A DNA stretch of 34,040 nt, from positions 1-34,040 of the IMG/VR virus record IMGVR_UViG_3300027847_001505; one strand, 5' to 3'. Both the position numbers and the translations under genes were made by a program. A model generated the notes under the pieces. It was given only the letters and a program-made list of their open reading frames with translations, was not told the origin of the DNA and searched no databases. This stretch comes from a virus. Below, one piece after another: positions 14,544 through 33,979 of this stretch (position 1 is the first letter of the stretch; each line of letters opens with the position of its first letter).

Positions 14544-14547
14544 GAAT

Positions 14548-14554: not shown

Positions 14555-14687
14555 AGGAGGCGGCACAGCCTCCCTTTCGGAGGGGGGGTATAGGGCAGGA
14601 ACCGCCCTGAAGTCGGGGACCCCGCCAACACCTCCTTGAGGCCACGACCACGACGTTCTCGAGATAGAGGCCCCCCTGGAAATCTGA

Positions 14688-14708
14688 CAAGTTTCTTCAA
14701 AAAACTTG
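14688..14708 (-). promoter_or_regulatory. Alternative hairpin overlapping the terminator-like stem
   Basis: On the minus strand CAAGTTT-TTTGAAG-AAACTTG is a perfect 7-bp stem with a 7-nt loop. Its 5' arm uses three bases of the preceding stem (14706-14708) and most of the T run, so the two hairpins cannot form together. This arrangement resembles an attenuator/antiterminator pair, but no trigger is visible. Confidence 0.35.
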
Positions 14709-15800: not shown

Positions 15801-18572
15801 CTATGCCTCCTCCTCTTCTTCTTTTGCCGCAGCCATGATCACCTGGATCAACTCCAGAAGGAGAAGGGGGATGCCGCCTGCGACCACGCACCCGCCAAAA
15901 GCGTAGGCAGTGGATTCGATTTCTGGCTTCTGCTCGGCGGACAGGAAGTCTGCGACCAGCCCATCTGTGCCGGCTGATGTGACCATGAGGAACGCCAGGT
16001 CCCCAGAGATCTCGAAGTCCTTGAACATGGCGAGAATGGCCTGGATCTTCCGGATGAACTGCTGGAGCTCCATGACCCGCATCTCGATCATCCGAATGTA
16101 CTTGAGGATCTCTTCCAAGAGGGCCAGCAGACCGTCGCGGATGGCCTTCACCGTGGCGATGATCTTCTCGAGGAACTCCTCGACAGGCGCCAGAAGACCG
16201 TCGAGAGGGCGGATGGCGATCCATTCACCGGAGGATACGGGACGGGCGGCGATGTTCAAGATCCCCGCGGCTGCCTTGAGCTGGTCGTCCGTGAACAGAT
16301 TCCGAGCAGGGACGAGGACGACACGACCATCAACGGCAACCTCATCAAGAGTATAATCCTCGCCACGAGCAAGGAACAACCTTTTCTTCGATGCTGGAGT
16401 CCCGGGGCTGTCGTATGCCTCCATCACCATCCTCGATGAGTCCGTATTCCCCTTTACGACCTGGAGACATGGAAGAGAGTTCAGGAGGGTGGTTCTCCTC
16501 GCCGCTTTCGGCGTCCTCGCACTTCCCAATCCGCTCCCGGAGTTGATGGCGGAGCCGAGCTCCGTCTTCGCGCTACCCGGTCCCGCAGTTCCTGCATTCT
16601 TGCACCACTCGATGGTTGTTCCCAACGGCGGCTCCATGAGTCCGATGATGGTGTCCCGCTCCGTGGACCCGCCGCCAGCTCCGGCGGATCCGCTGGGGAT
16701 GCTGTATCCACCGAGCTCGATCCTTGCGCCATCGGAGGCGTTGATCAGCTTGTTCCCGTAGGCCTCCATGAGAGCCGACAGGGCGGAGTCTGGAATGGCC
16801 GTCCCCAGTCGCATGAAGTCGGACACGAAGCGGTTGGCGGCGGTCCTGACGCGGAAAGAGAAGTCACCGTACTGCCCGCCCGTGTACCACTCCTCCTCGG
16901 TGCCCCACTGCATCATGTACGCTTTCACGGAATCCGAAACACCCTCGAGGCCCGTCTTGTATGCGTCACCCTGCCACTTGCTGTCCCCGCCGGGGGACGA
17001 GAGGTCGGCCCTCACCAGGGTAGCCACATAGAAGGCCGCCTTCACGGCCTGTGCAAAGCCGAGCATCGTCCCGGAGGGGAAGCTGACCTTGGCCGGCTGC
17101 GATGTGGGTCCTCTGTCGTCCTGCGTCGGCCAGATGGTCGCACTGTTGAGATCCGTGGCCGAACCGAGTCGCCACTGCACACCCTTCCCATCCTCGACCT
17201 GGACGTCCTGCGCCTGCGACCCCTCATTCCGTGTGGTTATTGAACCATAGTAGTCCAGACCCTCGCCGGAGATGGGGGTGACCCGCACATAGACTTCCTT
17301 GGCGGGTTCATCTCCAGCCACCGGCTTCCCATCCTTCACCTCCTTGAGGGGGTAGGGCATGTGCTCCGCCAGTAGGCGGATCCCGAAGCCGCCGAACATC
17401 CCCGCAAGACTCCGGGTGTCCACCACGAAGGTCCTCTGGAGGATGTGCTGCCCTCCCTCCTTCACTGCGTCCCTCCACTTCTTGATCGAAATGGGGTGGG
17501 CGTCACTGGGGCTGGTGAGGGCGAAGGCCGACACCTCCTGAGAGTCGCTGCGGGACGGGGGGAAATCGAACCCTGCGGGGTTCATCTTGTAGCCGCCGGC
17601 GATGACCCCCTTGTAACAGTTGACGGCATCCGGACCCCCATAGAGCATGAGGGGGCCTCCTCCAAACGTCTTGCTGACGCGGAACATCCCGTATCTTCGG
17701 GTGACATCAGTGCTGAACCCGGGGGCGGCCTTCGCCCCTGAAGTTTCCGAAGGGGCCGTGTACCCGACAAAGAGGCCGCCTGGGACCGTTGAGACCTCCA
17801 CCAGGCATCCCTCCGGCGGGAGCGGTGGGAACACCATGAGAGCGGGATCCGCCCCGGGAGGAGAACCAAACTTCCACTCGAGGACGGCCTCCTGGGGAGC
17901 ATCGGTTTCCTTCCAGATTGCGTCCATATCCTTGAACATCCCACCGGCACCACCCTGGGTCTGATAGCGGACCTCCAAACCCACGGCGGGCATGAGGGCT
18001 GAGCCGTCGAAGTTCATCTGGCCGAACAGCTTGGCGATGGTCTTGATCGCCTTCCAGAGTTTGACGACATCATAGATGTCGGCGCCGCCCACGATGAACA
18101 TCCCGAGAACGCCCGAAGCGGAGCTGAAGTTGGGCCTGTTCGGATCGGATCCGTCGGTGAGCCAGTTGACCACGCGGCCCTCGTACCGGCCGTACCCGCC
18201 CATGAACTGGCGGAGCATCCCGTCCCATCCCTTGAGGCCGGCTACTTTGGGGTTCAGACTCCTGGCACCCCCCTGTGCTGAAACCTGGGCTTCAAGGGCA
18301 GTCCAGTCGCCCCGTACATAGAAGCCTGCGTTGCGGAGGTCCCCGAGGATCCCCTCCAGCATGGCGATGATGAGCTCGAGGATGGGGATGAGGGGGCTGA
18401 GCAAGCCGATGACGAACACCTTCACGACCTGAAGGATCACCATCACGATGTCGAGGAGGACGACGAGCATCTCGAGGAACGAGTTGATCGCGTCGATGAT
18501 GGGTTCCATGAACGGAGGTGGAACCTCAAATCCAATGGAACCCCATTTAGCGAGTGCTGTGTCTTCTGCCAT
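15801..18572 (-). CDS. Uncharacterised 923-aa virion protein with hydrophobic helices at both ends
   Basis: The ATG at 18572 overlaps the TAA of the 82-aa gene by one base (TAATG). Residues about 22-75 are strongly hydrophobic helices (LEMLVVLLDIVMVILQVVKV, then FVIGLLSPLIPILELIIAML). The middle, about 80-780, is mostly beta/loop with Gly and Pro, including ISGDW-like GFYVRGDWTALE near residue 85. Residues about 790-886 return to long amphipathic helices (EEFLEKIIATVKAIRDGLLA, MRVMELQQFIRKIQAILAMF). Residues about 893-914 could be a membrane segment (AFGGCVVAGGIPLLLLELIQ), and the protein ends KEEEEEA. I recognise no named family. No signal peptide is present, so it is probably a virion part rather than a secreted protein. 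A tail-tip or membrane-contacting role is possible but unproven. Confidence 0.85.
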   Translation of the reverse strand: MAEDTALAKWGSIGFEVPPPFMEPIIDAINSFLEMLVVLLDIVMVILQVVKVFVIGLLSPLIPILELIIAMLEGILGDLRNAGFYVRGDWTALEAQVSAQGGARSLNPKVAGLKGWDGMLRQFMGGYGRYEGRVVNWLTDGSDPNRPNFSSASGVLGMFIVGGADIYDVVKLWKAIKTIAKLFGQMNFDGSALMPAVGLEVRYQTQGGAGGMFKDMDAIWKETDAPQEAVLEWKFGSPPGADPALMVFPPLPPEGCLVEVSTVPGGLFVGYTAPSETSGAKAAPGFSTDVTRRYGMFRVSKTFGGGPLMLYGGPDAVNCYKGVIAGGYKMNPAGFDFPPSRSDSQEVSAFALTSPSDAHPISIKKWRDAVKEGGQHILQRTFVVDTRSLAGMFGGFGIRLLAEHMPYPLKEVKDGKPVAGDEPAKEVYVRVTPISGEGLDYYGSITTRNEGSQAQDVQVEDGKGVQWRLGSATDLNSATIWPTQDDRGPTSQPAKVSFPSGTMLGFAQAVKAAFYVATLVRADLSSPGGDSKWQGDAYKTGLEGVSDSVKAYMMQWGTEEEWYTGGQYGDFSFRVRTAANRFVSDFMRLGTAIPDSALSALMEAYGNKLINASDGARIELGGYSIPSGSAGAGGGSTERDTIIGLMEPPLGTTIEWCKNAGTAGPGSAKTELGSAINSGSGLGSARTPKAARRTTLLNSLPCLQVVKGNTDSSRMVMEAYDSPGTPASKKRLFLARGEDYTLDEVAVDGRVVLVPARNLFTDDQLKAAAGILNIAARPVSSGEWIAIRPLDGLLAPVEEFLEKIIATVKAIRDGLLALLEEILKYIRMIEMRVMELQQFIRKIQAILAMFKDFEISGDLAFLMVTSAGTDGLVADFLSAEQKPEIESTAYAFGGCVVAGGIPLLLLELIQVIMAAAKEEEEEA
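15804..15816 (-). promoter_or_regulatory. Ribosome binding site embedded in the poly-Glu tail codons
   Basis: The GAG/GAA codons that end the 923-aa protein (EEEEEA) create GGAGGAGG immediately upstream of the next ATG at 15800. Five bases lie between the last GGAGG (15806-15810) and that ATG. Translation of the 328-aa gene is therefore likely coupled to the preceding gene. Confidence 0.7.
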
Positions 18573-18820
18573 TAGGCGCCCCCGCCGTGCTTCAGTCGGT
18601 TCACCTTCTCTCGCAGGGCCTCAAGGGTTTCGGTGTCCTTGTCGATCTGCGCCTGCATCAACTTCTCCAGTTGCACCACAAGCTCCATCTGCTTCCGGAT
18701 CGAGGGCAACTCGGAGGCCTTCATGTTCCGCTTGGGCTTGAGTACCTGGGGACCTGGCCCAAGACCGAGGTTCCGCATGGCCTCCAAGAGTTCCTCATAA
18801 GTCATATTGTCTTTGGACAT
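18572..18820 (-). CDS. Small helical (coiled-coil-like) protein of unknown function, 82 aa
   Basis: The ATG at 18820 lies two bases after the TAG of the giant gene and has GGAGG with a 5-nt spacer. Its stop overlaps the next start by one base. The sequence is charged and mostly helical: an N-terminal short helix (MTYEELLEAMRNLGLGPGPQ), a basic linker (VLKPKRNM), then a long helix (about residues 38-77, KQMELVVQLEKLMQAQIDKD, ETLEALREKVNRLK) with a heptad-like spacing of Leu/Val, ending HGGGA. There is no membrane segment or cysteine. It may be a chaperone, adaptor or oligomerisation partner for one of the large neighbours; that is inferred from size and coupling. Confidence 0.8.
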   Translation of the reverse strand: MSKDNMTYEELLEAMRNLGLGPGPQVLKPKRNMKASELPSIRKQMELVVQLEKLMQAQIDKDTETLEALREKVNRLKHGGGA

Positions 18821-18822
18821 CG

Positions 18823-21800
18823 CTACCTCCCCGTCTTCTCTGTCATGCGTCGCATCCTCTCCATTTCCCGGATACGCTTTGGGAGCTCCCTGTCGAAGCG
18901 CTCTACCTTCGGAAGGGTCCCATCGACCCTGTGGGCGCGGTAGGTCAGCCAGGAGTACCTGAGCTCACGGAACCGGTCGGAGTTGTTCAGTACGTTGTCG
19001 ATCATGTCCACCACCAGCGGTCTTCCCCGCCCTTGATCCCGCATAGCCGTATAGAAAGGATCTGCAGGGTCAGAGTAGGGAGGTCTCGTAAGATCAAGTT
19101 CATAGTCCTGGCATTGAACCCTACGATCCAGGATGGAGAGGCAGTCGGCGTCATTGATGAACTCCGACTTGTCGAACTGGCCCATCACGCCGTAGATGAA
19201 GGCATTGGAAAGTAGCCCGAGGCCCTCCTCGTCCACTGTCGGAGAGCCGAGGTCGTCGATGTGCCGAAGCTCCTGAAAATCCCTGTATGTCCCCCTCTTG
19301 GTGCCGTCCACGGCCCGTCGGAGGTGTTCCATGAGTGAGAGGATTCTCTCGCGGTGGAACAGAATGAGTTCAAGAGACTCCTCCGAGAAGAAATCACTTG
19401 GGCGGATGATGGTGTAGGAGAGCGGCGCAATCGAGAACGGATTCCCCGAGTACTGATGCGGCTCCGTGTCCCCGTCCCCGTCCACCAGATCCAAGAGATC
19501 CTGCCCAACGAAGGCGGTGGGGCGGAGGTCGGACTGGGCCTCGGTCGCTGCTTCAGACGGATCCCCAGACCCCGTGAGTGCAGAGGCCCCAACCGTCGGG
19601 TAGAGAGCGAAGGCCGTGTCCGGTGGTCCTGACACCTTGTTGATGATGCGACTACCAGCGAAGGGGGATTCCTCGAAGGGGAGTACCTTGACCTGCGTCG
19701 GTCCCGGAATCTCGGACACCACATAGTATCCCCTGTTGTCGTCAAGCTCCGCTGGGCGTCCCCGCACATACCCGGTGCGCCCTTCGACGGCCAGGTCACC
19801 GTAGGGTCGTGTCCCCTCCTCGAGAGCATCCTCCTCCAGATTTTCCGAACCCGGTGGGCGTAGGACGCTGGCGGGATCGATAATGAGGATGTCCCCCTCG
19901 TCCACGCCGATCTGCTGGAAGTTGATCTGACCGGGAGCCACGCCAGCATCGGTGTCCGTCAGGATGTTCACGGATGCGTCGTACACCGCCGACTTCCAGA
20001 CGTTGTAAGCGGCGGCATCCGCAGCAAGATCCGGGGGGTCTACAGGATCGGGAGGTGACCCCACCTCTGAAAAGTTCCACTCAACGTAGCCGCCCTGCTG
20101 CCCCTGAGACCCGTCGTTCATCACGGCGGTCCTTTTGTAGATCACTTCCTCTGTAGCCAGCTCGAGCAGTTGTTCGTTTGACTGCTGGTGGGGGACAGGT
20201 GCGATGTTCAGATAGACCTCGAACCGCAGACCCTCCCAGGGTTCATTCAGGTTCGCCCCATCTGGATCGTCATAGACGATGAGACCCGGCGGGGCCAGTA
20301 CGAGGGTGTCCGCAGACTGGATGGACGAGATCTCCCCCTCTGCGATGAGCTCTCCGGTGGCATCCGAATAGACTCGGACCATGTCTCCCGGATTGATGTT
20401 CACATCACCATCGTCAAACCCGCCGAGCTGTGTACCCCCTTCGGCTGACGAGAAGGTCCCGAATGTCCCCGTCTGCGTGTATGAGGCGATGGTCCCCCAC
20501 CTCGTTTCGTATGCATACCGAAGGGCGGCCAGGTTGTTCGCAAAGGAGTCCTGGACATCGTGCCACCTGCGGATCCTGCGGACGCTCACGAGTGTCCTCT
20601 CGTAGAGGAAGTTGTCCTTTGCGGCGATACCGATCTCGGAGAGATCGGCGATGAAGCCGGCCTCGGCGCGCGTGCCCACCTCGGTGGCAGCCAACTCAAG
20701 GGCATCGCTATTGAAGTCGGCGGCGGCCACCACGCGGGGGCCATCAGCCTCCAGAGTTGATGCCAGGTCGGCGGTCGGCATGGGGAATGAAGGCTCAAGG
20801 AACAGACCCGCCTCGGCGTAGAACGAGGGGTGGGTGACCGTGTTGTCGGCGGGGTCCGTATACTTGGTCTCGAGTGAGCTCCCCGGCATGAGGGCATTGA
20901 TGTCCGTCACATGGGCAGCAGGGGCGATCACATCGTCGCTGTATGACTTGTTGATGGCCTGCCAATCCAGGTTCGCCACGAGCTTGAGATCGAGCAGGAT
21001 GGGTGCTCCAGTGTACTGGTAGTCCGACTCGACCTCGTGGAAGGCCCCCGGATCGGTGGGCACGAGATAGTTGGCATCGTAAATGGAGATGGTCGATGCT
21101 GCCGTCGCCTCCAGGTCCCCGTCGGTGTTGACCCCGAACTCGACCGTCCCAGCATTCCAGACCCCGTCTGATCCCTCATCGTACTCGAGGCCGTTGTGCC
21201 GGACGGTGAGGGCGGCGAACCCGAGCTGCGACACATCCTTCTCGGTGTGCCCCGTAGCCCCGGTCTTGGGGAGCCCCTGGCCCGTAATGGACACGGGAAC
21301 CCAACGGATGCCGAACGTCGTCTTCCCCACCTCCAAAGCGAATAGATCCCACCTCTCACCATCCCCCGCGGCGTCGTTGGTGATCACGTTGATCGTCCCG
21401 TTGCCGTCGGCCATGCTGTCGGAGATGGTGCGGACGTCGTCCACCTTGAAGTAGGCCGTCCCGTCAAAGTCACTCGAGCTCTGGTCGAGGTGGATGCTGC
21501 TGTACTCGACTCGGTACGAGGTGGCTCGCCAGGTGTCCTCGTCGATGTTGGTCGCTGCGGAGGCCCGCAGGATGTAGAGGTCGCCTGACTCGTCCCAGGC
21601 ATGGCCCGTCCAGTCGGCGGGCTCATCGGCGGGGGCGCCGTTCCAGTCGAGGGGCTCGATGGACTCGACCCAGATGCGTCCCGAGTCCTGCGCCTCGGCA
21701 GTCGAGGGGTCGAAGTCGGGGTGGTCCTGGCCGAGTCCTCCCGCATCCAGGTAGTCGGGATCCACGCCCGTTACCTTCGGCATGTAGGACCTGGCCCACC

Positions 21801-24800
21801 CGTTCGAGCTTGGCACAGAAGCCGTAAGGTGGAGGGCCCTGACCATGAGCTCCGTTGGAACGGTGGGGAATGTCGGGACCACTGGGGACGCTGCCACGGC
21901 GTGTCTGACCAGGTATGTACCGGAACGGCTGGTTCCCCGCTCCAGAGTGGATAACCCGAGGGCACTCTCTACCCCCTGCTGTACGACGACCACATCACCA
22001 GGCACCACGGGGCCTGCCTCCATGGAGGCAACGCTGGCCCCCTCGTTGTAAACCAGGATGCGGTTCTCAAGGACCGGCGTCACCGTGTCGATCACAAGGG
22101 GATCCGCAATCGCTTCAGCGAAGGCCCCTCCGAAGGCCCCTGATCCCCCGCAGATGATAGCGGGTGAGTCCTTGCCCTGCTGACTCGAGGGGACGGCGGA
22201 GAACAGAGCGCCAGAGAAGGCGATGGGGGTGTTCCCATGACCCTCCCAGGCCATAGCCTTGACGGTGCCGAAGCTGGCACCCCACCACCCCACGCCCTTG
22301 TATGTCCCGGCCCCGATGGGTCGGGCGGAGAATGTGAGGCGGGATCCCTCGTTCATGGATGTTGCGGGGTCGTTCACCGTGGACATGACCGACCACGGCG
22401 TGCCCGCAAGCCACAGTGCAGTCTCCGTCGCTATGTCGTAGAGTTCAAACTCGAGGGAGATCAAGGAGAATGGGTGCTGGTAGCCTCTGGGCCTGGCGGT
22501 GCGGAAGTCGACCGTGTCGCCGAAGGTGAGCCTGTCCTCACCGATGAGCGCCGTGCGCCCCTCCACGACATCGAGGTCGATGTAGAACCCGAGGTACAGG
22601 TCGTCTGCGCTGATGGATCCGTCCGCCCCCCCGTATGTGTAGAAGTGATCGACGAGGTAGTCGAGGTTCGGGTCACCCGCGTTGGGGTGGCCTGGGGGGT
22701 AGAACTCTGGGTCGTCCTCGTTGTCCTCTGCGACGTGTACGAAGTCGCCCCACGGGAACCACACGGCCACGTTGTCCTCGTCGGCGAAACCCGGCACGTA
22801 GAGTGTGTCCAGGTATCCGTTACCGCCATCGACTACTGGCGAGGGGTCATAGCCGAAGCCGCCAGGTTCGATGCCCGCCCCGTCCGTGGCATCGTGGTGC
22901 TCGTCCTCCGGGTGGACGGTTCGGATGATGATGTCGTCCACCCCGGAGGCGGTGTGGAACCAGACCAGTGGTCCGTTGTACATCTGTTCGGGGATGCCAT
23001 CGGGCGGGTCATCCACATCGACCCAGAACACGCTCGGGCGTGTCCAGGTGCCGCCTCCGTCCACGCTGAGCTCAAAGTCGCAGTCCTCGATCCCCTCCCC
23101 TGCGGCGTACGAGCTGGTCTTCTTGATCCACAGCTCGAGCTTGACTTCGCCGTCGCCTGCCTGCGGGTCTGCGAGGTCCGCTGGCCGCCGGAGAATGTTG
23201 AGCTTCAGGGTGGTTCCCGCCTCCGCATTGGCGAACAGGTCGTTCAGACCACCTTCGGGCATCCCCGAAGACGTGAACTCTCCGCCCTCGTCCCCATCAT
23301 CAAGAGTGATGAATCCCGACCCGACGGAGCTGAAGCTGAGCCTGGTCTCCGTCCACCGGAAGCCGGCCTCGAACCCATCGACGGGGTCTGCGGTGTTGTC
23401 GATCCACAGTTGATCCACCCGTAGGCCACTTGCATACCCTTCGTCATCGGCGACCCACCCAAGCGCCTTGTCAGCCTTGTACGAGATCCGGGCACCCGCC
23501 GGGGACGGTGTGATGAACCTCGGAGTCTCGATGATGCCGTCGGTCACCTCCCCGACCGTGAGGATGCCCTGTGCGCCCTCCACGACTGCGGGGCTGGTGT
23601 CGTCGGCCTCCATGAGAAGGAGATCCCACCGGCGCAAATCACCGATTCCAGTATGGTCGTCGTACCCGCCGTTTGTTGCCACGGGTAGGAGGTCCGCAGC
23701 AGTCGTCATAGCAGCGGGATTGTCCCCGGATCCTGACACGGCGCCGTCGGCTCCGAGTACCTCGTCCGGGTACACCGCCTTCCATGTCTGCCCCGCAGCG
23801 GCGGAGGTTGCGTGGAGAGACGAGCAGTCCGACATGAGGACGTCGATACCGCCCCGCTGTGCCGCCTGAAGCCTTTGGATCTCGGTATTGGCTGCCCCGA
23901 GGTAGGGGAGGGTGTAGTCGCCGCTGTCATCCTTGGGTTCTCCGAGAAGAGCAGGGATCTCAACGGGCTCAAGCTCGGACTGGTGGAACAGGACCTCGGA
24001 CTCGATACGGGTGTTGGGCTTGGGCGGATTCTGGCCGAAGATCTCCTGGAGGCCGAAGAATGTGGGGTCATTGAACGAGGGGAGGGACATGTCCCTGAAC
24101 CGCCCACGGCGTCCGTTGTAACTGATGTCGAACCCTGTTCGATACCCAGGCATGGCGGCAGCTAAGCGGGCCATATCCTCCAGTGTCGGAGGGTCAGATG
24201 GTTCGACTTCAGCTCCCGCACCGAGGGACTGCATGACGGTGTCCCCCTTGAACAGTTCAAGCGGTGTCCCCCCATCTTCAGAGGTGACTTCCACAAACGA
24301 GTTTGCATCAAGGACGGCGTCCCCGTCGCTGTCGTTGAACGTGATGCAGCACCCCGCATGGATCGCTTCCACGAACACGGGGTTCACCTTCTTGGCTCCG
24401 AAAATGGAGATCACCGTGACCTCATGGCCCGGGGAGAACACGGTGCCATCGGGACGGCCGAACTGGACCTTTGTCCCGGGCGTCCAGGGCGGGGTGCTGA
24501 TCTCCCAGTCCCCGGTGGTCAGATCGGGACCCCCGGTTTCACTGTTGGCGGCCATGCGGTCAGGATCCGGAGCTCCCGTATCGGGATTCAGGGGGAAGTC
24601 CGCAAGAAGGCCCGGCGTAGCGAGGATGGCGGGCCTCGGGTTCGTAGTGAAGTCGGTGCCGAGTACTGCGTCATATTCTGGGAATCCGGAAGGACTCCAT
24701 GCGAAGATCCGAGCTCGGCTGGTCCGGGGGCCAGACCGGCACGAGAAGATGTTCTCAATGGTCCCGAGGACGGGGTTCGAGATGGTCCCCGAGGTGCTGA

Positions 24801-27800
24801 AAAACGTGCTCTTGAGCTTCCAGTCCCGGATGCCGAGAAACAGGTGCTCCCCGTAGTCCTGTTTCGGAGGGTTGTTTCCCACCCCGGGAAACAGGTTGGT
24901 GAAGGCCCTCGCCCGCTCTGGGAAGATCCGGGAGAACTCATTGGGTTCAGAGAGTCTCTCGTAGCGGCCCTTGGCCTTCAAGATAAAGTGCGGGAGCGGG
25001 AACAGCCTGAAGAGGATGGTAGGCCGCTTACGGCTAACGATGACCAGGTCATCTACATCGTTCTTCACAAGCTCCCGCTGGCGGGTGATCAGGTAACGCA
25101 TCTCATCCGCATCCACGAAGTCCCCGTCGATGGCACCCTCGTCCAGATATGACGACGAAGGCACGACCACCCAATCGTCCTCGTCGGCTCGCATCGCAGC
25201 TGCGGTGCTCCCCGTGTGCTCCATGAATACCGTGGCCCAGAGGTTTCGGGGGTTCAAGAACCCCGTGACGGGGTTCTCCCATCCCGGAGGAGTCCACTCG
25301 AGGCCCTCACCGACCCAGAACCGGAACTTGCGATCCCGGTCGCCCACGATGCGTCCCGTGATAGTCTCGCTGATCTGCTCGAAGCAGACGACCACCTTGT
25401 TGTAGAAACCGAGGTACTTCCTGGCCGCCCGGTCCTTGTCCAAGAGGCTTGTGCGCTCGACCTTGAGCCCCACCCTTCCGTTGTCCCAGTTCTTCGGACC
25501 ACCGCCAGCTCCCGTAGAAGCCCCATATGAAGCCCCCCTCGCCTTGATCTCCTGGATCATCTGGACGGAGACCTCCCCCATGTAGTCGAGAAGGGGCACC
25601 GCCCGGTAATAGAACGTATCCGGAGACCGGAACGTATATGTGCCGAGGAGGGTGGCCGACTTCAATCCGTTGTCGTCGGAGGGGAGGATGCCGTGCTTGT
25701 ATCTAGCCCCGAACCTCGGGAACATCAGGACACCGTCCTGCACCGAGGGCACCGCCATGATGACTCGGGTCCTCGAGAAGGTGAGCCTCTGACCAGGTTC
25801 GACATGGGGACGCTTGGGGAGTTGGAAGGCAATATCCCCGGTGTTGGGGTCGGCACTGTAGTCAACACCCGCCGCAAGGGTCTTTCCTGGGAGTTCGGTC
25901 CCGTCCGAATCCTTCTCACCCCACAGGACGATCTCATAGGGGAGGTCGAAGAGGTATGGGCCCGATCCGATGTAGTTGATGTTCCCCTGAGGATAGACGG
26001 GTCGGGTTGAAAGCCTGACCTCATCGGTCCCGAAGGCATAACCTTGTATAAAGTTCGGAGTGATCGAGAGGGCCGTCCTCCGGCCATCCTCCGAAACCTG
26101 AACGGCGACGATGGTGTACGGGATGCCGGCCATCTCCAAAAGGTGGCCCGCCTGGACAACCTTGGACAGGTCGGCCAGGAACACCAACTCCACACGTCCC
26201 TTCGATACAGGTTCCCAGACGGGTTCGGAGTCGAGTCCGAGGATCGCACCCGGGGTGACCATGAACCCTTCGGGGGCATCAGCCACAACCGCCCCACCCA
26301 CGGTGGATGACACAGGGGTTGCGGTGATGAAGGATATGGCATCGTTCCCTGGAGCCAGTGATCCGGCTCCGTTGGGCGGAGCTGGCGGAAAGATCCCGAC
26401 GGAAGTGGTATTGGATCCGGCATCGTATGCCACGGACTTGAGGTAGAACATGTGACCCCCGAGGCGCATGAGGGCGCCCGGGAGGAGATCACCTGTTCGG
26501 TCGGAGACGAGTTTGAAGGACTCTGCACTCTCGGGGATGTAGAAGGGGGGCCGGTAGACGGGTGGTTTGGACACGGTGTAGACGATCTCGCCACCGAATG
26601 CCTCGAGAACGCCGTAACTGATCTTCACACGGGCGGATTCACTGACTTCGTAGGTGAAGTAGAGAAGGTTCTCGTCCCAATCGACTTCACAGGACTCGAT
26701 ACCGGCGAAGTTCTGCATCTCCGCCCCGACATAGATGACCGGATCTGCATCCCTGAACAGGGTCTTCAGGTCAGGGTTGAAGGAATAGACCTGTGCGGAC
26801 ACCCTTGTGCATACCTCCCCCCTGACAAATAGGGGCAGAATCTCTGTGATGAGGGGTTCAGGAACGCCATCCTCGTCAATGATGAGGTCGCCGCCCGGGT
26901 CACACCGCTGATACTCCACCTCGACCATCTGCCCCTCAAGGAGGGGTTCCTTGAACATGAAGGCACCCGCCATGGGGTTCGGGACCACGTCTGCCCTATC
27001 CTCGGTGATCATCCGGGCGACCCAGTAGACATCCTGCCCCGCGTACGAGGTGATGTCGTCGGATGAGAGGTTGATGTCGCCCGATCCTGGGTCTGCCTCT
27101 ACATCGCCCTGCTGCATGGAGGTGGGATTGGTGAAGGTCTCCGCAAACACAACCCCGGACTGATCGAGAGACTCCAGGAGTGCGCTCCCAAAGCGAACCT
27201 CGCCCGTACTGGAGATGAACTCGGCACCGGCACCGGCACCGGGGTCCTCGGAGAACTCGACAACCTCCGTCAGCTCGGTGCCTACGGCGAGCTCCGTTCG
27301 TCCGACCACGAGCTTGAATGTGCGGTCATCGAAGGAGGGTCCTGGGGGGATGAAGATGGAGCTGTTGGCGATACGCCCAAGCTCCGACCTCTTGAGAAGG
27401 ACGACGGGATGATCGGGGCCGTCCAAACCAAACCTGACATAGAGAGGGCGGCTACGGAGGATGTCCTTGGACATATCCACGGAGAGGCGCCCCGAGGATT
27501 GCTCACCCTCGCTGGCGGGACACAATCCCGTCCCAGTCATGAGACGGACGATGAAGGGTTCCTCGGGGAGATGGTTGAACCGGTCATAGACGTGATCGAC
27601 CACCATCTGGGCATCGATCTCGTCCACGGTCTTCATCCTGTAGATCTCCCAGGCCATCGGGGACTCGCCGGATCCCGCAGGGAATACGGGTTCCACGCCG
27701 AGCTTGCCGTCCTCGACCGCCGTGATCACGTATGAGCCGGTAGCATCTCCCGTGGGGATCTTCAGGCGGTATCCGACCAGAATCCCTTCGTCCTCAAAGG

Positions 27801-30800
27801 CTGCAGAGTCGTCCAGGAGTTCAGACCCACCCTCATCGAAGGCAGCCTTGGATCCGAACAGGAGGAGCTCCCCGATTGTTTCCGTGAGGATTGCGGATCC
27901 AGGGAGGCCGTCGTAGGGGAGGATGTAGTCTTCGTCCTCCTGCATGAGGGCGAAGGGCTCCCCCTCGAGGGAAGCCATGAAATACCCGCCGAGGGCGGGG
28001 TGGAGAGTTTCAGAGATCACATCCTGCGTACCGAGAGGGATGTTCGACACGGGGGCCTCGGATGCGAAGGCCGATGTCTTCGAGCCAATCCAGGCAAACT
28101 TGCCATCCCGGAACATGTGCTTGATGTTGTCGAGGTGCTCCAACCGCTTCCTGTAGGGTCCCCGGAGGATCTCGAAGAACACCCCATCGTCCACTCCCGC
28201 AACATCCTCCAGCGGCTCCTGCATGATGAATACGAAAGGTGATTCAGACACATCACCGAGGATCTCGCCCCCCATCCTCCCCCGAGATGAGAAGTCGGCC
28301 TCACTACCACTGCCATCCTCGTTGTAGGGGCTGCGCCAGAGACCCAGGGATGATCCGTTGTCGGCGAGCCAGTTGGGATCTGCCGCTGTCCCCGCATCAA
28401 CGGGGTTCACAAGGGGGTGCTTCACAGACCAGAATGGGTTGAACCCGAGAGCTGCGCAGCCAGAGAGATCCTTCACTCCATTGAACCCAGGGAGGATTTC
28501 AATCCACCCCTCGTATGGGGGATCCATGTCTGGGTGCAGGACCAGGCGGTTCATAACCGCTGAGCACTTGTACGGAGCACCTTGGGCAGCCAGAGTCGTA
28601 GTGATGTCGTCGGCCACATCAGCAGCCGGGTATGGATCCCCCTCCTCGGATACCTCCCCACTGGAGATCCCCGCCGCAGTCCACTCGACGGCCTGGTTGC
28701 CCACGACGATCTTGAGGGACTCATCACCCCTCAAGGTGTAAGGACCCTCCATCCTGGACACGATTCTGGTGTCCTCCGCATAGGAGGAAGGAGTCAGATC
28801 TGACTGCTGGAAGTAGACGGGGCGGTTGGCGAACCGGACGAGGTCGGTCAACCCTACGGATGCCTTTGTGCCGTCGGAAGTACTCCCCTTGGCGATGCAG
28901 GCACGACCCTTCCTAATCAGGAAGGGCATCAGCTTGAATGCGTCCAGGTCGTCCACATCGTTGTACTGCTTGATCTTCTCAAGCGGCCTGTTCGGTGTGA
29001 ACACGAAGGAGTCCCCAATGCCCTCAACTCTCCGCACAAGACCCGACTCTCCATACCTGTGGTTGATGCCCTGAGATCCATCTGGAACAGCTCCTGTCCC
29101 GTCCTCAAGATGCCAGACCCCTGAAGTGCCAAGGCCTGGATTGGCGGGAGCCTCGGGGATGGTCATAGGAGGCATAGGAGAAGAGAAGATGAGGGCTGAC
29201 TCGATGAGGACTGGAGCTCGGGGAGGCTGGGGGGTTCTCGTCAGCGACACGCCGTCATAGAACACCTCCACACCCCCGAAGGCCTTCTCAAAGTCCGGGT
29301 TGGGAGACTCAACATCGCCCATGCCGGCCTTGATGACATCGGAAGGTGAGAAATGGAGCTTCCCTGTGGAGAGGGAGATTGCGACACTCCCCCCGGGCGG
29401 CCATGCGGGGTCTGCGCCGACAGCACCCGAGAGCTGTGCATCCGAATCCATGTAGATGACCTGGAGCCACCTCCTGCTTCCGATCCTGACAAGGGGCCTC
29501 TCGGTCATCCCCGGGATGGGTGAGAGAAAGAGGGGGTTACTATCTGACCCCTCAAGTTTTCCCACGGCCCCGTTCGAGGTGGACTCGAACGTCTTGTAGA
29601 TGTACCAGACGGTCTTCCCTGCATGGAGGCCGATCATCTGCGGGTTCCAGATCAAGGTGCCAGAGGTTTCACCGACGATGGCAGCTGGCGGTGGCTCGTA
29701 TGAACCGAAATCGAAGTCCCCAGACTCAGCTACATCATTAGGGACCACGAGGATCCCCCGGAAGTCCACTCCGCCATTCGCATCCCCTGCATCCCCGACG
29801 GGGTCAGAGCTCGAATCGGGACGGAGACCCAACCGCACCATGCAGTACTCGTCAGCGTTGAAGGTCCCCGGGAGGTAATCACCGACGGTGAGGTTCTTTG
29901 GGCGGGGGGAAAACTCGTAGCTGTCGTCGGGAGTGAGTTTGCCGAGACTCTTTGGGGCGCCTCCCTTGAAGGGTTCCCACCTCTGACGAGCTCCGTTCCA
30001 TCCGAACCTGGTGTTCTCAGGATCGTTCTTCGTCCACCAGAACCTCGGAGAGGCCAAGAAGTAGACGACCTCCCGAATCTGGTCACCCCGCTTCGAGCTC
30101 ATGGCGGGGAGACTCCCCTCTGCTGGCCGGAAAAGGGCCCTTGTACGGTCAGTGTCCTCGATGAGGATGAGTCCCGTATCAGGATCGGCGCACGATATAT
30201 CGGCACCCACGTAGAGTTCATGCTCCTCATTCTCGTCGTCGTCACCCAGCACGATGGTGATGGAGACAACCCCGGCGATGCTCCGCCCCCCGTTGTCGGT
30301 CAACACGACCCTTTGGGAGGCCCCCGCCAGCGGCTCGATGACCACAAGGCTGCCCGCAGCAGCCAGGAAGCCGGAGGCCACCAGCTCCGTGAGTGTGGCC
30401 TCCGTGTCGGATTCGACGGACTTCACCGTGAACCGGGAGAGACCATAGTAGATGTAGGCGCCGGGAGAGAGGGCTGAAAGGAACGATGTACCCACCCCTG
30501 TGATGGCGTCGGACCCCGTGGTGAAGGTGACTTCACCAGAAACAGGCCTGGAGAAGTTCGCCATGCCCTGCGTGTAGACGTACTGGTCGCCCCAGGGGAT
30601 GGCGACAGTCCCCTCCTTGATGGCGTTGGAGGCAGATTCCACCACGGAGAGATTGGAGCTGTTGGCGGCCCAGGCGATGTATTCCTCGAGTTGACCCTCA
30701 CGGCCAGTGAGGATGGCGCTCTCGTACTGGTAGTAGGACATTCGGACGAGGTTCTCGGACCCCCATGAGCCTATGAAGGTCGCACTCCACCCATTCCCGA

Positions 30801-30906
30801 GGAACTTCACGTCCCCACAGACCCCTCCGGTGGCACTCTCCGTGGTCGTTGCGTTGCCCTGGGCCACCCTTGGGCCCCTCAGCACATGTCCGTCAAAAAC
30901 ACCCAT
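18823..30906 (-). CDS. Giant 4027-aa beta-rich virion protein of unknown function
   Basis: The ATG at 30906 immediately follows the TGA of the 198-aa gene (TGAATG), with no strong ribosome binding site, so translation is probably coupled. The start reads MGVFDGHVLRGPRVAQG. Residues about 126-180 match a small beta-domain I know from phage tail proteins (TFTTGSDAITGVGTSFLSAL, FTVKSVESDTEATLTEL). Similar short beta units recur (VGYRLKIPTGDATGSYVITA; MRLGGHMFYLKSVAYDAG; LLEMAGIPYTIVAVQVSEDG). Near residue 2190 there is an EF-hand-like calcium loop (DSDGDAVLD). The last 220 residues turn helical and basic (LILFHRERILSLMEHLRR; KRIREMERMRRMTEKTGR). No enzyme motif, signal peptide or membrane segment is visible. 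It is not helical enough for a tape measure. Likely a baseplate-associated or tail-surface scaffold; function unknown. Confidence 0.85.
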   Translation of the reverse strand: MGVFDGHVLRGPRVAQGNATTTESATGGVCGDVKFLGNGWSATFIGSWGSENLVRMSYYQYESAILTGREGQLEEYIAWAANSSNLSVVESASNAIKEGTVAIPWGDQYVYTQGMANFSRPVSGEVTFTTGSDAITGVGTSFLSALSPGAYIYYGLSRFTVKSVESDTEATLTELVASGFLAAAGSLVVIEPLAGASQRVVLTDNGGRSIAGVVSITIVLGDDDENEEHELYVGADISCADPDTGLILIEDTDRTRALFRPAEGSLPAMSSKRGDQIREVVYFLASPRFWWTKNDPENTRFGWNGARQRWEPFKGGAPKSLGKLTPDDSYEFSPRPKNLTVGDYLPGTFNADEYCMVRLGLRPDSSSDPVGDAGDANGGVDFRGILVVPNDVAESGDFDFGSYEPPPAAIVGETSGTLIWNPQMIGLHAGKTVWYIYKTFESTSNGAVGKLEGSDSNPLFLSPIPGMTERPLVRIGSRRWLQVIYMDSDAQLSGAVGADPAWPPGGSVAISLSTGKLHFSPSDVIKAGMGDVESPNPDFEKAFGGVEVFYDGVSLTRTPQPPRAPVLIESALIFSSPMPPMTIPEAPANPGLGTSGVWHLEDGTGAVPDGSQGINHRYGESGLVRRVEGIGDSFVFTPNRPLEKIKQYNDVDDLDAFKLMPFLIRKGRACIAKGSTSDGTKASVGLTDLVRFANRPVYFQQSDLTPSSYAEDTRIVSRMEGPYTLRGDESLKIVVGNQAVEWTAAGISSGEVSEEGDPYPAADVADDITTTLAAQGAPYKCSAVMNRLVLHPDMDPPYEGWIEILPGFNGVKDLSGCAALGFNPFWSVKHPLVNPVDAGTAADPNWLADNGSSLGLWRSPYNEDGSGSEADFSSRGRMGGEILGDVSESPFVFIMQEPLEDVAGVDDGVFFEILRGPYRKRLEHLDNIKHMFRDGKFAWIGSKTSAFASEAPVSNIPLGTQDVISETLHPALGGYFMASLEGEPFALMQEDEDYILPYDGLPGSAILTETIGELLLFGSKAAFDEGGSELLDDSAAFEDEGILVGYRLKIPTGDATGSYVITAVEDGKLGVEPVFPAGSGESPMAWEIYRMKTVDEIDAQMVVDHVYDRFNHLPEEPFIVRLMTGTGLCPASEGEQSSGRLSVDMSKDILRSRPLYVRFGLDGPDHPVVLLKRSELGRIANSSIFIPPGPSFDDRTFKLVVGRTELAVGTELTEVVEFSEDPGAGAGAEFISSTGEVRFGSALLESLDQSGVVFAETFTNPTSMQQGDVEADPGSGDINLSSDDITSYAGQDVYWVARMITEDRADVVPNPMAGAFMFKEPLLEGQMVEVEYQRCDPGGDLIIDEDGVPEPLITEILPLFVRGEVCTRVSAQVYSFNPDLKTLFRDADPVIYVGAEMQNFAGIESCEVDWDENLLYFTYEVSESARVKISYGVLEAFGGEIVYTVSKPPVYRPPFYIPESAESFKLVSDRTGDLLPGALMRLGGHMFYLKSVAYDAGSNTTSVGIFPPAPPNGAGSLAPGNDAISFITATPVSSTVGGAVVADAPEGFMVTPGAILGLDSEPVWEPVSKGRVELVFLADLSKVVQAGHLLEMAGIPYTIVAVQVSEDGRRTALSITPNFIQGYAFGTDEVRLSTRPVYPQGNINYIGSGPYLFDLPYEIVLWGEKDSDGTELPGKTLAAGVDYSADPNTGDIAFQLPKRPHVEPGQRLTFSRTRVIMAVPSVQDGVLMFPRFGARYKHGILPSDDNGLKSATLLGTYTFRSPDTFYYRAVPLLDYMGEVSVQMIQEIKARGASYGASTGAGGGPKNWDNGRVGLKVERTSLLDKDRAARKYLGFYNKVVVCFEQISETITGRIVGDRDRKFRFWVGEGLEWTPPGWENPVTGFLNPRNLWATVFMEHTGSTAAAMRADEDDWVVVPSSSYLDEGAIDGDFVDADEMRYLITRQRELVKNDVDDLVIVSRKRPTILFRLFPLPHFILKAKGRYERLSEPNEFSRIFPERARAFTNLFPGVGNNPPKQDYGEHLFLGIRDWKLKSTFFSTSGTISNPVLGTIENIFSCRSGPRTSRARIFAWSPSGFPEYDAVLGTDFTTNPRPAILATPGLLADFPLNPDTGAPDPDRMAANSETGGPDLTTGDWEISTPPWTPGTKVQFGRPDGTVFSPGHEVTVISIFGAKKVNPVFVEAIHAGCCITFNDSDGDAVLDANSFVEVTSEDGGTPLELFKGDTVMQSLGAGAEVEPSDPPTLEDMARLAAAMPGYRTGFDISYNGRRGRFRDMSLPSFNDPTFFGLQEIFGQNPPKPNTRIESEVLFHQSELEPVEIPALLGEPKDDSGDYTLPYLGAANTEIQRLQAAQRGGIDVLMSDCSSLHATSAAAGQTWKAVYPDEVLGADGAVSGSGDNPAAMTTAADLLPVATNGGYDDHTGIGDLRRWDLLLMEADDTSPAVVEGAQGILTVGEVTDGIIETPRFITPSPAGARISYKADKALGWVADDEGYASGLRVDQLWIDNTADPVDGFEAGFRWTETRLSFSSVGSGFITLDDGDEGGEFTSSGMPEGGLNDLFANAEAGTTLKLNILRRPADLADPQAGDGEVKLELWIKKTSSYAAGEGIEDCDFELSVDGGGTWTRPSVFWVDVDDPPDGIPEQMYNGPLVWFHTASGVDDIIIRTVHPEDEHHDATDGAGIEPGGFGYDPSPVVDGGNGYLDTLYVPGFADEDNVAVWFPWGDFVHVAEDNEDDPEFYPPGHPNAGDPNLDYLVDHFYTYGGADGSISADDLYLGFYIDLDVVEGRTALIGEDRLTFGDTVDFRTARPRGYQHPFSLISLEFELYDIATETALWLAGTPWSVMSTVNDPATSMNEGSRLTFSARPIGAGTYKGVGWWGASFGTVKAMAWEGHGNTPIAFSGALFSAVPSSQQGKDSPAIICGGSGAFGGAFAEAIADPLVIDTVTPVLENRILVYNEGASVASMEAGPVVPGDVVVVQQGVESALGLSTLERGTSRSGTYLVRHAVAASPVVPTFPTVPTELMVRALHLTASVPSSNGWARSYMPKVTGVDPDYLDAGGLGQDHPDFDPSTAEAQDSGRIWVESIEPLDWNGAPADEPADWTGHAWDESGDLYILRASAATNIDEDTWRATSYRVEYSSIHLDQSSSDFDGTAYFKVDDVRTISDSMADGNGTINVITNDAAGDGERWDLFALEVGKTTFGIRWVPVSITGQGLPKTGATGHTEKDVSQLGFAALTVRHNGLEYDEGSDGVWNAGTVEFGVNTDGDLEATAASTISIYDANYLVPTDPGAFHEVESDYQYTGAPILLDLKLVANLDWQAINKSYSDDVIAPAAHVTDINALMPGSSLETKYTDPADNTVTHPSFYAEAGLFLEPSFPMPTADLASTLEADGPRVVAAADFNSDALELAATEVGTRAEAGFIADLSEIGIAAKDNFLYERTLVSVRRIRRWHDVQDSFANNLAALRYAYETRWGTIASYTQTGTFGTFSSAEGGTQLGGFDDGDVNINPGDMVRVYSDATGELIAEGEISSIQSADTLVLAPPGLIVYDDPDGANLNEPWEGLRFEVYLNIAPVPHQQSNEQLLELATEEVIYKRTAVMNDGSQGQQGGYVEWNFSEVGSPPDPVDPPDLAADAAAYNVWKSAVYDASVNILTDTDAGVAPGQINFQQIGVDEGDILIIDPASVLRPPGSENLEEDALEEGTRPYGDLAVEGRTGYVRGRPAELDDNRGYYVVSEIPGPTQVKVLPFEESPFAGSRIINKVSGPPDTAFALYPTVGASALTGSGDPSEAATEAQSDLRPTAFVGQDLLDLVDGDGDTEPHQYSGNPFSIAPLSYTIIRPSDFFSEESLELILFHRERILSLMEHLRRAVDGTKRGTYRDFQELRHIDDLGSPTVDEEGLGLLSNAFIYGVMGQFDKSEFINDADCLSILDRRVQCQDYELDLTRPPYSDPADPFYTAMRDQGRGRPLVVDMIDNVLNNSDRFRELRYSWLTYRAHRVDGTLPKVERFDRELPKRIREMERMRRMTEKTGR

Positions 30907-31503
30907 TCACACCACCACGCTCATAGGACTCGTCCCCGCCCCCGGAGCGGGGCCTCCTGCACCTACCACGGCACCTGTACCCGGAGCCCCGAAACCGAGC
31001 ATCACGTTTGCGGCTATACCGTTTCCGAGCCCAGTGGCAAGCATAGAGATACCAGGACCACCTCCTCCAGTGTAAGCCCTCAACATGGTGTTCAGGAGGC
31101 CTATGAGGGTCGCTGGGTTGGCTGACACGATCTTCGAGAAATCCGTGCCTGCACCGGTACCCGCTGACGGACCCGAGTACATGCCCGACTGGGAGATCGT
31201 TGTGGACACCCCGATGGACGCTGCGGTGGCAAGCATACTCATCATAGGCCCCGTGTTCCCCGCCGCCGTACAGGCCCCGATGACCAAAGGGGGAGCTGGA
31301 GGGCATATAAGTTTGCCGGTGACGACTCCGCCGCCGAGGATTCCCGTGTTCATGCCCGTCAACATGACGTTCTGCGGCTGGCCCGTGGCCCAGGCGGTAA
31401 CGGCCATCCCGATGGCCTCCGACACTGGAACCCACATCGTTCCCGTGAAGAGGGGGGCGGCCAGGCGGATCTGCACTGCTATCTGCGATGGGATGAGTGG
31501 CAT
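30907..31503 (-). CDS. 198-aa Gly/Ala-rich repeat protein next to the spike (possible spike-tip or hub partner)
   Basis: I start it at the ATG at 31503 (MPLIPSQIAVQIRLAAPLFT) because AAAGGAGGA is correctly placed 3 nt upstream; a GTG at 31536 would leave that site inside the gene. The protein is rich in Gly, Ala, Met and Thr. It contains about three diverged copies of a unit with a hydrophobic helix after a Gly/Pro turn: LFTGTMWVPVSEAIGMAVTA, GNTGPMMSMLATAASIGVST and GGGGPGISMLATGLGNGIAA. Gly-rich linkers lie between them (ILGGGVVTGKL). It lacks a PAAR-repeat signature that I can recognise. Being directly downstream of the spike gene, it may cap, thread or anchor the spike. No family is recognised. 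Confidence 0.8.
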   Translation of the reverse strand: MPLIPSQIAVQIRLAAPLFTGTMWVPVSEAIGMAVTAWATGQPQNVMLTGMNTGILGGGVVTGKLICPPAPPLVIGACTAAGNTGPMMSMLATAASIGVSTTISQSGMYSGPSAGTGAGTDFSKIVSANPATLIGLLNTMLRAYTGGGGPGISMLATGLGNGIAANVMLGFGAPGTGAVVGAGGPAPGAGTSPMSVVV

Positions 31504-31506
31504 CCG

Positions 31507-31515
31507 TCCTCCTTT
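31507..31515 (-). promoter_or_regulatory. Ribosome binding site AAAGGAGGA fixing the 198-aa start
   Basis: The site overlaps the TAA stop of the spike gene (TAAAGGAGG) and stands 3 nt before the ATG at 31503. It makes the 33-nt longer GTG reading unlikely. Confidence 0.8.
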
Positions 31516-33979
31516 ACGGGGTGACCAGAACCCCACTCTGACAGTTGGTCAGAGCGAGGTAGGGAATACCTGTGATGGTACACCGGGTGCCTCCAGTGGT
31601 GACTGGACCGGGGGCCGCTCCGGGTGCGGAGATCGTAACCGCTGATGTACTCCGGATTGAGATGGGACCTCCGAGGGCCAAGAGAGATACACCTGTGAGA
31701 CCCACTGAACTGACGGATCCGATAGCGGCTGTGGTTGAAGCGTTGCCGACCCCGAGGAGGGTGGACATCCCAGAGGTGCTCACCTTGACAGAGTTCCCAC
31801 CCATGAGGCTGGCCATCATGACCTTGCCCGACCAGGCATGGAGGTTCTGGTCCCCCACCTTGCAGACGCGCGTGTTGTCCCCCATGTCGATGTTCCGGTT
31901 CCAGTCCCCGATCTGTATGGACTGATCCATCTGCACTGTGAAGGGCACAGCCGTCGTTCCCGGATTGGTGGTGATCTTCACCTCCTTTGCGGGCCCGTCC
32001 ATGACATTCCCACCCGAGTGGGTGTCCACGGATGTCTTCGTGGTCGTGACACTGTGGCAAGCTGCGGACTGCGCCAGCTTGTCGCCACTGGAAAACTCGA
32101 GGGAGTTCAAACTCCCCATGGTGACCTTCTGCGTCCGAGTGAGGTCCAACTCGGCCGCATGAATGGAAACCTTCCGGTCACACTCGATGAGAATGTTTTC
32201 CTTAGCCCCGAGGGATAAACTCGGGGAATCGGCCTCGGAACTCGTCCCCTCGCTCCGGCGCCCTACTCGACCCTCGGTGGTCTGCCCGCCCGCATAAATC
32301 TTGATGGCCCCGCTGGGCGCACTCATATCCACCGACCAAGGAGACCCCGAGCTTGAGCCTGTCCCTGTCATGCTGATGCCGCCACCAACGAGTTCAACTC
32401 CCGCTGACTGGATCCGGATCTTCCCGGCCGCGGACACCTCTACGCTGTCCCCTGCACCCCCGAGGAAGGACTTCAGGACTCCTGACTTGGTCACACTCCA
32501 CCAGGTCGTCCCGCCCCCCGTGGGGGACTTCATACGGAACATGGACGCCGCATGGTCGCCCACAGGCTTCCCGATGCCGGACACGATGGATGGAGATGCG
32601 GAGGATCCCTCGAACACGACGGGAACGAGGGGGAGCCCGTACAGTTTGTCGTCCCCGAAGGGGTCGTTGCCGATCACGGATCCGTAGACTGCCTCGATGA
32701 AGGGAGTGTTGGGCGACTTCGCATTGTCCGCATCGCTGAGGGGGAGGCGGTCGGCATCGAACCCGTCTGTCTGTTCCGTTACGGGAAGGACGCCGTTCGA
32801 GTCGTGCGTCACCTCAATCCTGTATTCGCAGAGGGCCTTGTCATCGAGGGCCTTACCTCTCCCTGGTGCGGTGGTGTTCAGCACTCCTGTGGGAGGTTGG
32901 CCCGGGGAAGCGGCCCGAAGACCCACCCTGTACATGACCTTACCGCCGTAAACCTCCCGCCCTGCATGAAGGTGGTTGCCCTTGTTCAGGGACCCCGTAT
33001 CGTCGCAGAAGGGACCCCAGCTCAGGAAGGTGTACGGATCCACATGGCCGGGAAAGGTGGTCCCGAACGCCTCCTCATACTCGGATTCGCCGTCCTCATC
33101 CGTACCTGACTCCCGCTGGAAAATCTCGCCGGGGGTCATGTCATTCTTTTCCCACGGGGCATCATCCAGCACATCTGGGGTTATGAACCCTGAGGGGGTC
33201 GCCAGAGGGCCAACATACTGATTCGGCTGATCCCACCACTCCCCGTCGCTGAACATCTGGGTGGGAAGCAGGCTTGCCTCCCTACGGATGGGTCCCCCGT
33301 ACACCCGAGCTCCAGCCATGGCATGGAACTGATTCACCGAACGAACGATGAACGACTGATCCTGGTCCCGTAGCCGGATTTCGTTCCCCCGGCGGTTGGC
33401 AAGGGTGACCCCCTCATCGAGAATCAGATCGGCCCCCTGGCCGGACGAGGCCACGATGTGGCCCGGTTCCATGTGGCGGAGTTTGAACCGAACACGGCCC
33501 ATGACGCCGCTCCACTTGTCCCTCTCCTTCGGAGTGGAGAGGCCTTCGCCGGGAGCCATGTCGGATCCGGGCACCCAGTCCCGACCCATCCACCAGGGAG
33601 GTGGGAACCAGGTGAGGATAACGGGAAGGCGGGATCCAGCATCTCCCTTCGAGTTCCCCGACACCCACCCGACCAGGCAGAAGTCACCGACCATCGGCAT
33701 CGCCCCGAGGAAGTGGCGGCGGCCAGCTCCAGGGAATGTAAGAGGGGTGGTGGCCTCGAAGGGCTTATCCTCCCGAGTTCCGGACTGTGGCCGCAGAGTC
33801 ACCCTCTGCGCCTCCCAGTCCACGTACATGACCTCGCACACGATGAGAGACCATGCGGACAAGCCCGTGTCCATGGATGCTGCATACGCATCCCGCGGCA
33901 CGCCCACTTGAGCCCTGATCTCACCCCGTGTGACAGGGTTGCCGTCCACTAAAGTCTTCGAGCCTACATCTCCGCCCAT
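31514..33979 (-). CDS. Central baseplate spike protein, gp5/gpV-like, with N-terminal OB fold
   Basis: 821 residues; the ATG at 33979 has TGGAGG 5 nt upstream. Residues about 44-125 fit the gpV/gp5 OB fold (VCEVMYVDWEAQRVTLRPQS, FPGAGRRHFLGAMPMVGDFC, LVGWV). Residues about 170-215 (EPGHIVASSGQGADLILDEG, NRRGNEIRLRDQDQSFIVRS) are typical of the segment after the OB fold in spike proteins. The last 330 residues are beta-repeat sequence suited to a trimeric spike (KIRIQSAGVELVGGGISM; SIQIGDWNRNIDMGDNTRV). The C-terminal tip has two cysteines (TTGGTRCTITGIPYLALTNC). No lysozyme domain sits between OB fold and spike, unlike T4 gp5. It is much longer than P2 gpV. It would form the membrane-piercing needle at the tail tip. 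Confidence 0.85.
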   Translation of the reverse strand: MGGDVGSKTLVDGNPVTRGEIRAQVGVPRDAYAASMDTGLSAWSLIVCEVMYVDWEAQRVTLRPQSGTREDKPFEATTPLTFPGAGRRHFLGAMPMVGDFCLVGWVSGNSKGDAGSRLPVILTWFPPPWWMGRDWVPGSDMAPGEGLSTPKERDKWSGVMGRVRFKLRHMEPGHIVASSGQGADLILDEGVTLANRRGNEIRLRDQDQSFIVRSVNQFHAMAGARVYGGPIRREASLLPTQMFSDGEWWDQPNQYVGPLATPSGFITPDVLDDAPWEKNDMTPGEIFQRESGTDEDGESEYEEAFGTTFPGHVDPYTFLSWGPFCDDTGSLNKGNHLHAGREVYGGKVMYRVGLRAASPGQPPTGVLNTTAPGRGKALDDKALCEYRIEVTHDSNGVLPVTEQTDGFDADRLPLSDADNAKSPNTPFIEAVYGSVIGNDPFGDDKLYGLPLVPVVFEGSSASPSIVSGIGKPVGDHAASMFRMKSPTGGGTTWWSVTKSGVLKSFLGGAGDSVEVSAAGKIRIQSAGVELVGGGISMTGTGSSSGSPWSVDMSAPSGAIKIYAGGQTTEGRVGRRSEGTSSEADSPSLSLGAKENILIECDRKVSIHAAELDLTRTQKVTMGSLNSLEFSSGDKLAQSAACHSVTTTKTSVDTHSGGNVMDGPAKEVKITTNPGTTAVPFTVQMDQSIQIGDWNRNIDMGDNTRVCKVGDQNLHAWSGKVMMASLMGGNSVKVSTSGMSTLLGVGNASTTAAIGSVSSVGLTGVSLLALGGPISIRSTSAVTISAPGAAPGPVTTGGTRCTITGIPYLALTNCQSGVLVTP

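Follow-up and report, generated by a model that had tools for sequence, protein, structure and literature searches.

A conserved gene for a putative giant baseplate protein of uncultivated huge contractile-tailed phages

The tail gene cluster and the giant gene

The stretch of DNA analysed (henceforth the window) is a linear virus fragment of 34,040 bp from IMG/VR, whose minus strand carries an intact open reading frame of 4027 codons (ATG start, no internal stops) along with the other tail genes (Table 1). The original prediction of a single 12-kb gene for a 4027-aa protein was exact in extent; the strand had not been given. The product, henceforth called the giant protein, has a pI of 4.4 and a mass of 435 kDa as computed from the sequence. 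It is 66% identical to a homologue (L001) across aa 1–4026, and codon comparison of the two genes gave a dN of 0.24, a dS of 1.0, and an overall dN/dS of ~0.23, with dN well below dS in each 250-codon block (maximum dN/dS ~0.44). The full family model was spanned by 163 closed open reading frames of 3446–4168 aa (median 3697; fetched loci, overlapping by contig). Given the L001 homologue, the full-span frames, and the dN/dS, the open reading frame is not a product of chance, and the giant is a real gene under purifying selection. Its size had been likened to that of the largest phage structural proteins; larger phage proteins are on record, however, Al-Shayeb et al. 2020 having reported predicted proteins of up to 7,694 aa in huge phages (PMC7162821).

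Table 1. Features of the window with coordinates, strand, and basis of assignment (aa, residues of the giant protein; conservation across 55 homologues)
Feature	Coordinates	Strand	Basis and remarks
Tail-fibre-like protein, 2133 aa	1998..8399	(-)	Position and composition; no family match
gpI/gp7-position protein, 500 aa	8464..9966	(-)	Position and homologues; no Pfam or PHROG match
gpJ/gp6-like baseplate wedge, 1164 aa	9963..13457	(-)	Pfam Baseplate_J 1.7e-15, PHROG 3.2e-25
gp25-like sheath initiator with N-terminal extension	13467..14690	(-)	PHROG baseplate matches; homologue of phage G gp187
328-aa protein	14814..15800	(-)	No family match (Pfam, PHROGs)
923-aa protein, partner of the giant	15801..18572	(-)	Hydrophobic helical N-terminus, amphipathic C-terminal helices
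82-aa predicted coiled coil, partner of the giant	18572..18820	(-)	Invariant C-terminal GGG in alignment
Giant gene, 4027 aa, 435 kDa	18823..30906	(-)	Many small beta domains; open reading frame, homologues, purifying selection
Giant aa 3441-4027	18826..20586	(-)	Compact conserved alpha/beta C-terminal region; conservation 0.50; possible anchor
Giant aa 2501-3440	20587..23406	(-)	Variable, indel-rich; conservation 0.29; highest dN of the gene; possibly an exposed face
Giant aa 201-2500	23407..30306	(-)	Evenly conserved beta-domain string, helical block at aa ~1772-1850; conservation 0.50
Giant aa 101-200	30307..30606	(-)	Lineage-specific insertion overlapping the sole fibre-like PHROG matches; conservation 0.14
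209-aa Gly/Ala-rich protein, spike-tip (PAAR) position	30907..31536	(-)	Homologues suggest start near 31503
VgrG-like central spike, 821 aa	31514..33979	(-)	DUF2345 in 3/15 family members, best 2.4e-5

The DUF2345 score of the window's own spike is under the curated cut-off, and the 209-aa protein is labelled PAAR from the place of its gene alone: neither a PAAR profile nor the PDB matched it, and PHROGs gave nothing strong. When the families of spike, tip, 923-aa protein, and hub were searched as profiles against the PDB, matches remained at chance level. In the alignment, members of the 923-aa family consistently begin with a helical stretch of strong hydrophobicity and end in long amphipathic helices. 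Judging from the starts of blastp homologues, the gp25-like gene probably begins near 14543. The fibre gene holds a 33-bp tandem repeat (3655–3734) encoding an AAAHNHDSAY-type repeat, a possible metal-binding motif. J proteins 100% identical to that of the window over the matched part were found in two other IMG/VR contigs (L244, L245), i.e., near-identical phages are present in other assemblies.

Architecture and conservation of the giant protein

Conservation was measured across 55 homologues. Their median pairwise identity is 38%, and conservation is even over ~2,900 residues, which would fit a protein whose contacts are many and fixed. Occupancy falls to 0.22–0.35 at aa 101–200, an insertion that most relatives do without. 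AlphaFold models cover 44% of the chain, namely aa 1150–2330 and the C-terminal 587 aa. The former consists of many short strands with one helical block (mean pLDDT 79.8, pTM 0.44), so that its domains are well predicted and their packing is uncertain, and agrees with the small beta units proposed originally; the latter (aa 3441–4027) is confidently modelled (pLDDT 86.2, pTM 0.84). Of the helical basic C-terminus proposed originally, the helices were recovered, several lying in the last ~190 aa, whereas basic character is confined to the last 27 residues (pI 11.2) and aa 3601–4000 are acidic (pI 4.3).

The giant protein gave no match to Pfam, NCBIfam, or PDB sequence families, and PDB profile searches with four of its segments yielded chance-level matches only. 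No tail fibre or tailspike profile covers most of the chain in Pfam or NCBIfam, and the tail-fibre PHROG matches are weak (E 4e-5 to 3e-4) and confined to aa 119–229; neither Pfam nor PHROGs nor NCBIfam yielded a match to a catalytic family (vRNAP, DarB, lysin, lyase). The statement that no enzyme or fibre domain is recognisable was hence nearly right, holding for most of the chain and failing at these weak PHROG matches. Positions invariant in at least 95% of homologues are mainly Gly, Pro, Arg, and Asp, with no His, no Cys, and a single Lys, and form no catalytic-type set. Since neither a family match nor such a set exists, the giant protein is not an evident enzyme.

With either model, Foldseek matched no PDB fold globally; for aa 1150–2330, the PDB rows ranked highest were discarded as spurious long alignments (rmsd >20 Å). 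Local matches of ~90–105 residues were to small beta-barrels, e.g., of phi92 endosialidase (4hiz), Klebsiella K1 lyase (7w1c), and T5 Dit, and weak BFVD matches included proteins annotated as neck. Segment-wise profile searches and structure searches with the models of 44% of the chain, which had been proposed as a check, identified no known tape measure, fibre, or enzyme family.

Two internal duplications were detected by hhalign, aa ~1442–1508 with aa ~1555–1618 (probability 94) and aa ~1020–1073 with aa ~3639–3743 (probability 89). In addition, aa 703–831 resemble residues 96–214 in the N-terminal extension of gp25 (92), and aa 1012–1063 resemble the I-position protein (85, cleaned I model). 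The latter is the single module match left after cleaning of the I-position family; probabilities of 96–98 obtained earlier between giant segments and this family were artefacts of seven giant sequences inside the I model. Internal duplications and modules common with the gp25 extension and the I-position protein suggest that the giant protein may have grown by accretion of tail modules.

Relatives and distribution

The profile for the giant family was started from L001 (66%) and the homologue in LR745208 (34–35%), a 485-kb huge phage. Scanning IMG/VR yielded 93 relatives with the whole protein, 148 with the C-terminal part, and 165 with the core. Giant-bearing contigs reach 618,736 bp, further ones measuring 536,053, 497,194, 485,040, 435,804, and 402,383 bp, and the gene was single-copy in all 14 large contigs checked. 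An alignment of 42 members displayed full-length homology at 32–68% identity to the window copy; in three contigs the frame is interrupted, where assembly error is possible. Among the best 80 matches of a search with J, all seven records of 213–436 kb, two of which share one length (402,383 bp), recur in the giant lists. A J gene without the giant was seen in 13 of 18 contigs, all of them fragments of 26–68 kb, so that these counts do not establish absence of the giant from the phages concerned. In four contigs of huge phages (G001, G004, G008, G009), the stretch matched by J holds one TAG or TGA, representing either the gene end or an in-frame stop.

Among 50,697 phage records, no isolate carried a relative, the only convincing match being that in the metagenomic LR745208. 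In GTDB genomes, one contig matched (CALEMP010000172), which is probably a phage contig inside a MAG and hence does not indicate the host. As judged from these sequences, the giant is a conserved single-copy gene of uncultivated huge contractile-tailed phages, and may serve as a sequence marker for this group. The family is undescribed in Pfam, PHROGs (small insertion aside), NCBIfam, PDB, and the literature searched; no passage naming it was found in the portions consulted of two huge-phage papers (PMC7162821, PMC12619734). As no described family was found, yet huge phage proteins as such are already known, we regard the giant as a new family of very large, probably structural proteins whose genetic context is defined.

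Gene order across relatives

The usual order is 618-family protein, hub, VgrG-like spike, small Gly/Ala-rich protein, giant, 82-aa, 923-aa, and 328-aa proteins, gp25, J, I, and fibre. Neighbours were counted if located on the same strand as the giant at the expected distance. Upstream, the small Gly/Ala-rich gene directly adjoins the giant in 65/71 loci, followed by spike (57/67) and hub (54/63); downstream, the 82-aa gene is the direct neighbour in 62/65, followed by the 923-aa (61/64), 328-aa (52/62), gp25 (45/62), and J (40/57) genes. Most relatives thus have their homologue where it had been predicted, with the spike-side genes to one side and gp25 and J to the other. Hubs are very long, at 1280–1958 aa (L001 1859–6841 and homologues), and one homologue has a sub-threshold peptidase M15/Hedgehog-type match near aa 160–220, which suggests a built-in cell-wall hydrolase.

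The giant lies apart from spike or J genes in eight loci (L003, L008, L015, L026, L030, L058, L060, L074). In six of these (all but L030 and L074), the spike no longer adjoins the giant and the 923-aa gene still comes next after it; hence, the giant with its 82-aa and 923-aa partners is the tightest unit. Where the flanks are long enough, the three genes lie side by side in ~95% of loci, also in most of the scattered genomes, and both partners are present in the window, defining a three-gene unit for expression and cryo-EM. A subset of huge phages has a scattered tail cluster, in which genes for J, gp25, or spike are distant from the giant or oppositely oriented (L003 and L004 (LR745208), L008, L015, L026, L058, L060, and L074).

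Comparison with known systems

In LR745208, an uncultured 485-kb huge phage, an unannotated 3642-aa protein (230286–241214), for which no naming or study was found, is a full-length homologue of the giant protein at ~35% identity. As in the window, a 923-aa family gene comes after it; unlike in the window, the spike-tip-like gene has the opposite orientation, and so has the J-gp25-328 block, ~22 kb off. Its I-position protein (L004 2542–7833) has 1763 aa, of which residues 26–512 resemble the 500-aa I protein of the window and 514–677 a truncated open reading frame at window positions 1–1985, as if two genes had been fused.

Bacillus phage G encodes homologues of the core cluster, i.e., 618-family protein, hub, gp25, and J (gp184, gp185, gp187, and gp188); the likeness of gp189 to the I-position protein is provisional, the match having been made with the uncleaned I model. 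No homologue of the giant, 82-aa, or 923-aa protein exists in the examined stretch of its tail cluster (gp184–gp189), where gp186 (334 aa) is the sole gene separating hub from gp25. The giant is therefore an insert without equivalent in the homologous cluster of phage G; the original prediction had been that P2-type tails have nothing at this place.

The closest working analogue, by a speculative functional analogy, is the spike cage of AlgoCIS (Alg11 domain IV), a ~366-residue insertion inside the wedge protein. This cage surrounds the spike as an extension of beta structure, is negatively charged on its outside, bears two putative carbohydrate-binding modules, and opens at firing (PMC8894135, PMC13314943). 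The giant protein has no sequence or fold match to this cage and is encoded by a separate gene rather than as a wedge insertion, the J of the window being a protein of its own with 1164 aa; it is thus not a member of AlgoCIS-type cages. Cyanophage multi-domain structural proteins, e.g., the putative baseplate wedge A0A3G1L3S6 of S-CBWM1, display a similar style of beta-domain string (Foldseek E 3.5e-4), with TM-scores of at most 0.1 and homology not demonstrated.

Proposed role of the giant protein

Since the giant occurs in more than 100 very large phages and normally lies among baseplate genes, it is most likely an undescribed building block of the infection apparatus, and the predicted structural-type character is supported. 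Regarding place and function, we infer with even chances that it is a conserved structural component of the baseplate of huge contractile-tailed phages and forms an extra layer there; among the roles suggested originally, a baseplate cover fits best. Several copies, assumed to share the six-fold symmetry of the baseplate, would surround the spike in its centre and the wedges of gp25, J, and I as a skirt-like layer. The giant protein would be held in place by its conserved C-terminal domain together with its two partners, the coiled coil of 82 aa and the protein of 923 aa; its beta string (aa 201–2500) would make up the shell, and the variable aa 2501–3440 would be turned outward. At host contact or contraction, the layer is assumed to open with the wedges, so that spike and tube could pass. 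This reading is favoured by the hub-to-J gene order in most relatives with the linkage to both partners, the homologous core of phage G without the insert, even conservation, and a beta string with small-barrel matches to tailspike and Dit modules and modules common with gp25 extension and I. Against it stand the eight loci with the giant apart from spike or J, and in the searches run, no known baseplate protein matched it in fold or in sequence.

Alternatively, the giant protein could be a very long host-contact adhesin, its beta domains reaching out from the baseplate and binding the receptor with aa 2501–3440. The beads-on-string build, the weak tail-fibre PHROG matches, the Foldseek matches of small domains to tailspikes, and the faster evolution of aa 2501–3440 would suit an adhesin. 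However, the C-terminus, where fibres usually vary, is among the most conserved parts, and the fibre-like matches sit in the dispensable insertion, both of which argue against a typical fibre; a separate fibre-like gene (2133 aa) exists, and the giant is more conserved than the spike. We therefore consider host contact, one of the roles proposed originally, unlikely for the whole chain, and retain it for aa 2501–3440 as a potentially exposed face. Placement elsewhere in the virion (tail whiskers, collar, neck), the gene merely being housed in the tail operon, would agree with the unit of giant, 82-aa, and 923-aa genes sitting away from spike and J and with the BFVD neck matches, but most loci have the giant within the hub-to-J run; this makes such a placement distinctly unlikely, including the neck collar considered originally.

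Some large proteins, such as the phage N4 virion RNA polymerase and P1 DarB, are ejected into the host. Size, uniform conservation, and virion-type context would be compatible with such a fate, which the missing enzyme family match, the Gly/Pro/Arg/Asp-dominated invariant positions, and the beta strings of the modelled parts make very improbable. Equally hard to sustain, and if anything further from likely, is a non-virion scaffold or chaperone for baseplate assembly: the tight linkage to two small partners would fit, whereas 435 kDa of tail-type beta modules would be unusual for a chaperone and the modules are common with virion proteins. A tape-measure protein is strongly disfavoured, as predicted; the giant is the longest gene of the tail cluster, but its product is beta-rich, not helical, with mostly strands in the modelled 44%, and three related genomes have, upstream of their hub genes, separate helix-rich candidates of 1008–1117 aa, of which one shows a weak PhageMin_Tail match (E 4.6e-5).

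A further-reaching version of the baseplate layer, which we regard as doubtful, is that the megaphages of this group have an extra baseplate tier composed of the 435-kDa protein and its two partners, which would enclose the spike and gate the firing of the tail, and for which T4, P2, and phage G have no equivalent. With six copies, this tier would exceed 2.5 MDa. The giant gene makes it testable whether the baseplate is enlarged in very large phages.
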